Part shown: piece by piece, positions 30,223 through 62,090 of the stretch
Numbering within the stretch: position 1 is the stretch's first letter
How the letters are laid out: every line of letters begins with the position of its first letter
Assembly (NCBI RefSeq): GCF_027925305.1
Contig: NZ_BSDR01000001.1
Span: forward strand, 62,001-126,000
Reading direction: 5' to 3'
DNA length: 64,000 nucleotides
Source: Desulforhabdus amnigena
GTDB taxonomy: Bacteria; Desulfobacterota; Syntrophobacteria; Syntrophobacterales; Syntrophobacteraceae
Position numbers and translations under genes: made by a program
Notes under the pieces: generated by a model
What the model saw: the letters and a program-made list of their open reading frames with translations, nothing else
Told to the model about the DNA's origin: nothing
The model's database searches: none

Positions 30223-30750
30223 ATGCATATGATGAAGACAATCCTGATCGATGCCTCCTCAGCTATTCTGCTCTACAAGGCAGACGCTTTCTCTACACTG
30301 ATCCATGTGTATGATCTCAGAATGACGCCATCGGTCTTTACAGAACTTACCCGCGAAGGCTACCTCGGTACCGAGGTATTCAAAAGATGCTGTAACCGGG
30401 TGACTCGGTGGGAAGGATCAGCAGAAGGGATAAAATTCATGCCTGACGGATTTCCGCCTCTGCCTCACCTGGGCAATGGCGAGCGCGATACAATTGGTCA
30501 ATATCTGCAAGGAATAGGAAATTTTATCATTATGGATGACGGTAGAGCCGCCGCCTACTGCAGGGACAATTCCATCCCGTATATCAACGCGCTTCTGTTT
30601 CCTCGCATTCTCTACCTATCTGGAATTCTCTCCCAAACGGAGTACCGCCGCAAAGTGGATATTCTCATCCAGGTAGGAAGATATTCGAAAAAGATCATCG
30701 AGTATGCAAACCATTGCGGTCTGAAAGACGTGGAATTTTTCCTTCCCTGA
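30223..30750 (+). CDS. PIN-like domain protein
   Basis: 175-residue protein with the PIN nuclease lay-out: ILIDASSAILLYKAD at the start (first acidic residue), PSVFTELTREG (conserved E), and IIMDDGRAAAYCRDN (later acidic cluster), as in DUF3368-type PIN proteins. PIN proteins are Mg-dependent RNases, often VapC-like toxins. No antitoxin gene overlaps its start; three ATGs occur within ten bases, so the exact start is uncertain. It may be an orphan or degraded module. Confidence 0.65.
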   Translation: MHMMKTILIDASSAILLYKADAFSTLIHVYDLRMTPSVFTELTREGYLGTEVFKRCCNRVTRWEGSAEGIKFMPDGFPPLPHLGNGERDTIGQYLQGIGNFIIMDDGRAAAYCRDNSIPYINALLFPRILYLSGILSQTEYRRKVDILIQVGRYSKKIIEYANHCGLKDVEFFLP

Positions 30751-30780
30751 GAAAAAGCTCTTTTCCCGCCTTTTTCGTTT

Positions 30781-31209
30781 TCAAGGCTGCCATGCCAGAT
30801 TCAGCCAAAAAGATGAATTCATGGGATCGTTTGTGGACACGATGGCTGATTTCCTGGTGCTTCCTTTGCAACTTTTTAGATCGATGATGAGAGTTATCTG
30901 TCCCTCGCCGCCAGGAGGGATGATCCGGTCGAACCGGACGTCGCAGCCTCAGCCGACAGTGACCTTTATGATCTCCAGGTCTTCAGTCCCAATATTTCTC
31001 ATTAGAAAGGCATGTTCGATTTCGCTTTTGCCGGTGACTTTTCCGAAGGCGTAGGTAGATTCTTCAATTTGTAAAGCAGGCCCCTGGAGGGGAGCCGAAG
31101 AAACAGATACCGACTGAGCGGCAGCATGCATCGGACTTCCAGTCCCAAAAACCTGCGTGAGGATACAGAAGAGGATTATCCTGAAAATTTTTTCAAAATA
31201 TGGATTCAT
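30781..31209 (-). CDS. DUF1573 periplasmic protein with in-frame TGA (candidate selenoprotein)
   Basis: From the ATG at 31209 the frame encodes a signal peptide (FRIILFCILTQVFG, cut near HAAAQS), then a DUF1573 immunoglobulin-like domain: ESTYAFGKVTGKSEIEHAFL, MRNIGTEDLEIIKVTVG. Codon 87 is TGA (30949-30951). Beyond it the same frame continues without interruption for 55 codons: GCDVRFDRIIPPGGEGQITL, then TRKSAIVSTNDP, ending at TGA 30781-30783. In this family the position is the first Cys of a Cys-Gly-Cys motif, so TGA replaces a conserved Cys. A perfect hairpin follows at 30924-30938. Either selenocysteine is inserted, giving a 142-residue protein, or this is a fresh nonsense mutation. It is last in a minus-strand group after two small lipoproteins. 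Confidence 0.7.
30924..30938 (-). promoter_or_regulatory. stem-loop just downstream of in-frame TGA (possible SECIS)
   Basis: In the mRNA sense, TCCGGT TCG ACCGGA is a perfect 6-bp stem (extendable by one G-U pair) beginning 11 bases after the TGA at 30949-30951. The apical loop starts about 17 bases after the TGA, and a G is in the loop. Bacterial SECIS elements are hairpins within the coding region roughly this far from the UGA, so position fits; loop details are only loosely consistent. Confidence 0.45.
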
Positions 31210-31225
31210 ATTTATATATCTTTCC

Positions 31226-31441
31226 TTATTTATATCTCTCCATGATCCTTTTCTTCGAATCCTTGTATTCTTTTTCAGAAATAACACCTTTGTTGTAGGC
31301 CGCATCCAGATCCAACAGTTCCTGCCCCAAGGTCGTAGACCTCACTTCATTGACATTTTTCGCTCCCCCACCGCCGCATCCGTTTATGCTGAGGATAAAA
31401 AATAAAAAAATCATGAGTACAATCCATTTCACGCGGTTCAT
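31226..31441 (-). CDS. small SHOCT-domain lipoprotein
   Basis: 71-residue protein with a lipoprotein signal (KWIVLMIFLFFILSINGCGG, lipobox Cys at residue 22) followed by a glycine run and a C-terminal SHOCT motif (LLDLDAAYNKGVISEKEY, then KKRIMERYK). SHOCT is a short helical oligomerisation motif often found at protein ends. AAAGGAAAAG precedes the ATG. It is 16 bp upstream of the DUF1573 gene and 80 bp downstream of another small lipoprotein on the same strand. Function unknown; likely membrane-anchored. Confidence 0.8.
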   Translation of the reverse strand: MNRVKWIVLMIFLFFILSINGCGGGGAKNVNEVRSTTLGQELLDLDAAYNKGVISEKEYKDSKKRIMERYK

Positions 31442-61710: not shown

Positions 61711-62090
61711 GGAGTAGGGCAAATGATCGCTGGTTTATCCCCTTGCGGGGAAAGACGGGAGGAAAGTCCGGGCTCCACAGGGCATGGTGCTGGGTAACGC
61801 CCAGTCTCGGCGACGAGGAGGAAAGCGCAACAGAAAGCAGACCGCCTCGCCAATGGCGGGGTAAGGGTGAAACGGTGAGGTAAGAGCTCACCAGTCTCGG
61901 TGGCGACATCGGGAGCTAGGCAAGCCCCACCCGGAGCAAGACCGAATAGGAGAGCGTTTGAGGGCGGCCCGTCCGAGCTCTCGGGTTGGTTGCTTGATCC
62001 CACTGGTAACAGTGGGGCTAGAGGAATGATCATTGCCTCGTTCTTCCTTCGGGGAGGATGGGGAACAGAACCCGGCTTATGACCTGCTCC
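61711..62090 (+). ncRNA. rnpB: RNase P RNA (type A)
   Basis: The catalytic RNA that trims the 5' leader of tRNA precursors. Conserved parts occur in order: GAGGAAAGTCCGGGCTCC (CR I), GGGTAACGCCCAG, ACAGAAAGCAGACCGCC, GGGTGAAACGGTGAGGTAAG, GAGCAAGACCGAATAGG, and ACAGAACCCGGCTTATGACC. The ends pair: GGAGTAGG at 61711-61718 with CCTGCTCC at 62083-62090 (P1 helix, one G-U). A run of eight T follows at 62098-62105, so P1 plus T-tract may end transcription. About 380 nt, the usual size. Confidence 0.97.

Follow-up and report, generated by a model that had tools for sequence, protein, structure and literature searches.

A probable short exported DUF1573 selenoprotein of Desulforhabdus amnigena, from a clade in which an extra cysteine may have become the partner of selenocysteine

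A short DUF1573 gene of Desulforhabdus amnigena is most likely a selenoprotein gene with selenocysteine (Sec) at UGA codon 87, a reading that comparison of sequences strongly supports. We consider it highly probable that the product is an exported protein of the DUF1573/OS_HP2 kind in which Sec forms a redox pair with a cysteine, and we propose that this partner has moved in the short clade to which the protein belongs. The gene lies in the stretch of DNA that was analysed (the window; 64,000 nucleotides, positions 62,001 to 126,000 of contig NZ_BSDR01000001.1), and all coordinates without a contig name are those of the window.

The gene and its in-frame UGA codon

The frame runs from ATG to VTVG, meets TGA at codon 87, resumes with GCDVRFDRIIPPGG and continues through codon 142 to a TGA at codon 143, leaving 55 codons between TGA-87 and the real stop. 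When TGA-87 is translated, the match to PF07610 reaches 46.9 bits over residues 47–129, passing the cut-off of 26.1, and that to HYDIN_VesB_CFA65-like_Ig reaches 32 bits. The frame and the Pfam match bear out the layout given in the original prediction, namely a signal peptide, a DUF1573 domain up to VTVG, TGA at codon 87 and 55 further codons. The open frame extends upstream to an ATG at 31305, and the signal peptide is obtained from the ATG at 31209. The features are as follows.

30781..31209 (-): gene for a short DUF1573 (OS_HP2-related) selenoprotein of 142 residues, with Sec at codon 87 and a TGA stop at codon 143
31117..31209 (-): signal-peptide-like segment MNPYFEKIFRIILFCILTQVFGTGSPMHAAA, N-terminal residues 1–31, judged by eye
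30784..31095 (-): predicted PapD/MSP-like beta-sandwich (DUF1573 domain), residues 39–142; from AlphaFold, a match to 2qsv and Pfam
30949..30951 (-): TGA codon 87, taken as selenocysteine; its residue lies in the loop that joins model strands 40–47 and 51–55
30943..30945 (-): Cys89, retained in this protein; in the classical UGC motif it is the +2 partner
30868..30870 (-): Cys114 (+27), a conserved residue of the short clade located in the loop that joins model strands 64–72 and 81–88; suggested as a second or alternative partner for Sec87
30923..30939 (-): SECIS-like hairpin GUCCGGU-UCG-ACCGGAU, apical loop 17–19 nt past the UGA
31226..31441 (-): small lipoprotein-like open reading frame (ORF) of 71 amino acids; its end lies 16 nt before the start of the DUF1573 gene

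The 71-amino-acid ORF is probably co-transcribed with the DUF1573 gene. Its matches in the 243 fetched loci are the window's own copies only, so it stands outside any conserved unit, and a conserved operon with small upstream lipoproteins was rejected. An Rfam scan of 30700–31300 returned nothing beyond a chance-level match.

The genome (4.54 Mb, one contig) has the complete set of genes that the original prediction named for Sec insertion: selA (620 bits), selB (383 bits), selD (404 bits) and a tRNA-Sec (selC) with a TCA anticodon. The selD gene (C1:1265998–1266918) itself carries one internal TGA; SelD selenoproteins are of a known kind. A whole-genome PF07610 search found three DUF1573 genes, each with one TGA inside the match and all three at the homologous (aligned) codon. 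When 59 genomes, including this one, were searched with the window protein, 81 of 94 matches had one TGA and 13 had no stop (hand tally), and TAA or TAG occurred in none of the 94. The TGA is at the same codon as in the window gene in the matches fetched, so that it is shared with relatives and is no peculiarity of this strain. The aligned TGA/Cys pairs and the conservation after the TGA that were expected of relatives were both found, and alignment confirmed the CGCT-type motif in the Cys homologues. Where the fetched loci have another codon at the Sec site it specifies Cys (TGC/TGT) and in rare cases Trp, Thr or Ser. The family tree requires 17 changes between Sec and not-Sec, and the exchange is therefore frequent. 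The pattern DRxIPPGGE yielded TGA in 76 of the best 80 of 104 matches, which is no frequency because the pattern favours Sec-type sequences and the best 80 were taken. With query P0001 alone against the genome contigs, no relative was confirmed by tblastn.

Comparison of genomes with and without selA makes a weak contrast, as selA is over the cut-off in 272 of 295 genomes of relatives. Among the matches listed, ten relatives have DUF1573 but no selA match. Three of them (G091, G130 and G219) have a DUF1573 gene with TGA, and all three have selB, over the cut-off in G091 and G130 and as contig fragments below it in G219. Six have no TGA among the matches listed; G058, G088, G144, G196 and G268 are without selB over the cut-off, and G096 has selB. 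The last of the ten (G122) has selB, and its DUF1573 matches fall outside those listed. G091, a single contig that is 99% complete, combines selB (392.8 bits) and a TGA-bearing DUF1573 gene with no selA match; its selA may be missing, masked or divergent.

Several individual loci deserve mention. A UGC DUF1573 selenoprotein gene occurs outside the Desulfobacterota, in a metagenome record labelled Gemmatimonadetes (L237). Adjoining DUF1573 genes in one genome, one with CGC and one with UGC, form a tandem Cys/Sec pair (L150, G090:C37:14000–17000). In genome G025, a short-clade member (L073/L105) has TGG (Trp) at the Sec codon and retains the cysteine at +28 (C28), and long forms in G005 (L072/L177) and G013 (L139) have ACA (Thr) or TCA (Ser) there; in all of these the Sec/Cys residue has apparently been lost.

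The family shows covariation in a SECIS-like hairpin downstream of the TGA, although for the window gene taken singly the hairpin is weak. It lies directly 3′ of the UGA in the window gene and both paralogues. By our own score, a strong stem is present at that place in 71% of 87 Sec genes versus 27% of 33 Cys genes; the other 29% of the Sec genes are without one, and the score is zero in L071, L079, L153, L111 and L100. Covariation was assessed in 103 of 124 gap-free Sec genes, retained after a redundancy filter, and in 6 Cys genes. Pairing was found in 71% of stem cells in the Sec genes, versus 64 ± 1% in shuffles (none of 500 reached 71%) and 42% in the 6 Cys genes, and the 103 Sec genes show 57 double changes in the stem, compared with 33 ± 4 in shuffles. 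Two of the stem pairs connect third codon positions. For a stem further downstream, 76% of cells are paired versus 74.5% in its shuffles. Against synonymous-codon shuffles, the mean z over 54 nt is −1.48 for 138 Sec genes and −0.56 for 35 Cys genes, and over 42 nt it is −0.98 and −0.51; a control stretch further on gives 0.17 and −0.16. Cys genes too thus fold somewhat better than their synonymous shuffles (mean z of about −0.5). The window gene has z = −1.8 on this measure and the two paralogues −0.56 and −0.64; against dinucleotide shuffles, the window hairpin alone is not significant (z = −0.58).

Two readings would deny Sec a role in the product. The one that the original prediction had kept in reserve, a recent nonsense mutation that turned a Cys gene into a pseudogene, is in keeping with the existence of Cys homologues with CGCT; it is refuted by a TGA that both paralogues carry too and that recurs, with no other stop, in the 81 matches, with conserved sequence beyond it, and we give it next to no credence. 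Alternatively, UGA-87 could be a regulated stop, with a functional product of 86 residues and incidental readthrough. The decoding of UGA depends on selenium, and an exported fragment would remain after truncation. However, in an alignment (A1) of all 31 complete short Sec proteins of fewer than 225 amino acids, in which the window protein replaces its own copy (L003), four of the seven other invariant columns (G100, G103, D128 and L136) lie past the TGA, as do four of the eight strands of the structural model, which makes a regulated stop very unlikely. A change of the genetic code was rejected, because the window gene itself stops at the TGA of codon 143, which sits near the ends of its relatives.

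A known family and its short branch

The original prediction had proposed a candidate new selenoprotein family. The selenoprotein part is strongly supported by the machinery and the common TGA; the claim of a new family is ruled out by published tables of Sec proteins and by an existing NCBI model. OS_HP2 (pfam07610, motif UxC) is tabulated in a 2008 metagenome survey (PMC2398784), and DUF1573 (motif UGC) in two reviews (PMC9312934 and PMC13188914), the former crediting the entry to its reference 63 (Zhang & Gladyshev 2007). DUF1573 is also named in work on iron in Bacteroidetes, and NCBIfam release 20.0 includes the model NF041425, ‘OS_HP2 family (seleno)protein’. DUF1573 is absent from the main text of Kivenson 2021 (PMC8318568), and it is not listed in the 2006 Table 3 row for Syntrophobacter fumaroxidans (31 selenoproteins; PMC1794560). 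In the literature searched by full text, three papers name DUF1573, the two reviews and the Bacteroidetes work, with no functional study among them; the searches also found nothing on a periplasmic bacterial selenoprotein with Sec and a resolving cysteine, a result that shows little.

The proteins fall into a long and a short class, a division that, like the extra conserved C114, goes beyond what was originally predicted. Long forms have 335–441 amino acids in the 18 loci compared, carry UGC and include one paralogue from the same genome (L001). Short forms have 138–240 amino acids as called and one domain, and include the window protein and the other paralogue (L002); their N termini, judged by eye, resemble signal peptides, and 15 of 31 fit a loose lipobox pattern. 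UGC forms of about 230–260 amino acids also occur in other families of the phylum. Within the organism’s own family, a single genome can have as many as five DUF1573 matches (among the matches listed).

At 76.9 bits, below the NF041425 cut-off of 100, the window protein is a relative of that subfamily and, by this threshold, no member of it; L002 (81.8 bits) is likewise below the cut-off and the long paralogue (126.1 bits) over it. The best of 31 short members has an E-value of 6e-28, or about 97 bits as estimated by comparison with scored proteins, and is also below the cut-off. The window protein shares with NF041425/OS_HP2 the domain, the Sec position and the UGC motif, and differs in being short, single-domain and exported, with an extra cysteine at +27/28; the motif of its clade, in contrast to UGC, is mostly UG[S/T/V/L/I] or UAS. 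What looks new here is this short, exported, single-domain clade below the NF041425 cut-off, with a gained cysteine. Because their scores fall below the NCBI model, the short-class genes are probably annotated as truncated at the UGA.

Gene neighbourhoods were compared in 40 loci picked from the 94 matches (18 long and 22 short) using simple ORF calls. Of the 18 long loci, 13 have two genes directly upstream in the same orientation, one for a divergent polysaccharide deacetylase and one for an S41 (CtpA-like) peptidase, and in five of these 13 M23 (EnvC-like), FtsX and FtsE matches come next. The upstream DNA examined spanned 6.6–8.9 kb for all long loci but L099, for which it was 2.3 kb. L103 has FtsX and FtsE matches beyond the deacetylase and S41 genes. 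In the organism’s own genome (L086, C1:3793500–3810500), the long DUF1573 selenoprotein gene is downstream of ftsE–ftsX–envC-like(M23)–ctpA-like(S41)–divergent polysaccharide deacetylase (Pfam names). A link between the long selenoprotein and cell-wall remodelling is possible. Neither a deacetylase nor an S41 match was found near the short class (0 of 22 loci). The genes that recur beside this class, in a few loci, are generic ABC-ATPase and two-component genes and are not telling.

The cysteine partner and its predicted setting

AlphaFold predicts the domain (with Cys for Sec) as a confident beta-sandwich (mean pLDDT of 93.5, pTM of 0.84), in which Sec87 and C114 are model residues 49 and 76. 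The structure alignment (A3) contained the window protein together with 58 of 76 named Sec domains. In an up-and-down sandwich, loops that are two apart share one end. The closest match to the predicted fold is 2qsv of Porphyromonas gingivalis (Z of 13.4, r.m.s.d. of 2.1, 101 residues), with a sequence-profile E-value of 6.2e-06; 2qsv is 220 residues long and the window domain matches its second half. VesB/VesC, HYDIN-like, OCRL, MSP and PapD-like domains follow, and a phmmer search of P0001 against the PDB gave a best E-value of 0.25. The general fold is thus shared with Ig-like domains of the PapD, MSP and HYDIN types. Those listed are binding or assembly modules, and a fold in common with them shows no function.

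Among 178 distinct domains, the 140 rows with Sec have in every case a cysteine at +2, at +27/28 or at both: 108 have the +2 cysteine only, 4 have both (the window protein, L055, L056 and L066), 28 have C27/28 only and none has neither. Two weak second-domain matches (codons GCG and TCG) had been dropped before these tables were made, and duplicates and domains of fewer than 85 residues before the tree. The short clade comprises 35 rows with support of 99/96, in a tree that was built including the columns of the scored traits and with a bootstrap that had not settled. A cysteine 27 or 28 residues past the Sec site, C114 in the window protein, is present in 33 of the 35. It occurs in 30 of the 31 proteins of A1, the exception (L101) being outside the clade. 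In 28 of the 32 Sec proteins with C27/28, the +2 cysteine is gone; these 28 include L226, which is on a long branch outside the short clade. Of the 27 short Sec proteins that have lost the +2 cysteine, 19 have C27/28 as the sole other cysteine of the domain, and L126, L070 and L063 have no further cysteine anywhere in the protein. Two members of the clade with Cys for Sec (L132 and L134) are without C28 as well, and C28 is not strictly tied to Sec, because it persists in L135, which has Cys for Sec, and in L073, where the site holds Trp.

The pattern of cysteine partners is complete, yet independent origins are few. The tree needs 3 changes for C27/28 and 5 for the loss of the +2 cysteine, so that a phylogeny-corrected sign test on independent pairs (p = 1) has too few events and no power. 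The extra cysteine of the short branch may have taken over as the partner of selenium. We give an even chance to the full proposal, that a clade of envelope selenoproteins moved its resolving cysteine from U-x-C to another loop of the beta-sandwich, with the window protein as an intermediate stage.

The mechanism that we propose begins with SelB and tRNA-Sec, which would insert Sec at UGA-87 under the guidance of the hairpin just downstream. The product would be a small envelope protein with a PapD/MSP-like beta-sandwich and Sec in a loop, acting as a redox selenol paired with a cysteine. In the common UGC form this partner would be two residues downstream of Sec. The short clade would have gained a second cysteine, 27 or 28 residues downstream and two loops further along, which presumably took over in most members while S, T, V, L or I came to occupy the +2 position by drift. 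The window protein, with both cysteines, would represent the stage that preceded the loss of the +2 cysteine.

Sec could also be genuine while C27/28 has nothing to do with it and serves for structure or metal binding, with loss of the +2 cysteine as drift in one clade. The scarcity of independent origins and the retention of C28 without Sec in L135 and L073 fit this explanation, to which we assign a minor but real probability; all 28 distinct Sec rows without the +2 cysteine have C27/28, including L226 outside the clade, and the figure of 19 of 27 for the sole other domain cysteine also speaks against it. As a further alternative, the U-x-C or U...C site might hold Cu, Hg, As or Se and perform no redox chemistry; such a metal or metalloid site would suit an envelope location, and soft metals can be bound by thiols or selenols that lie close together. 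Sec is usually catalytic, however, and it is cell-wall genes that recur beside the long class (single neighbours may include metal genes), and we judge a metal site unlikely. An envelope thiol/selenol–disulfide (or persulfide/peroxide) redox step remains the most likely putative function.

If the proposed move of the partner is true, the short clade would represent a new type of long-range Sec–Cys redox site outside the thioredoxin fold. Its natural series, UGC, UGC with C28 and UG[S/T/V] with C28, makes selenium chemistry testable in an Ig-like fold. The long class hints at a tie with cell-wall remodelling genes, and DUF1573 selenoproteins as a whole are common in this bacterial group, yet the domain is named in only three papers of the literature searched.
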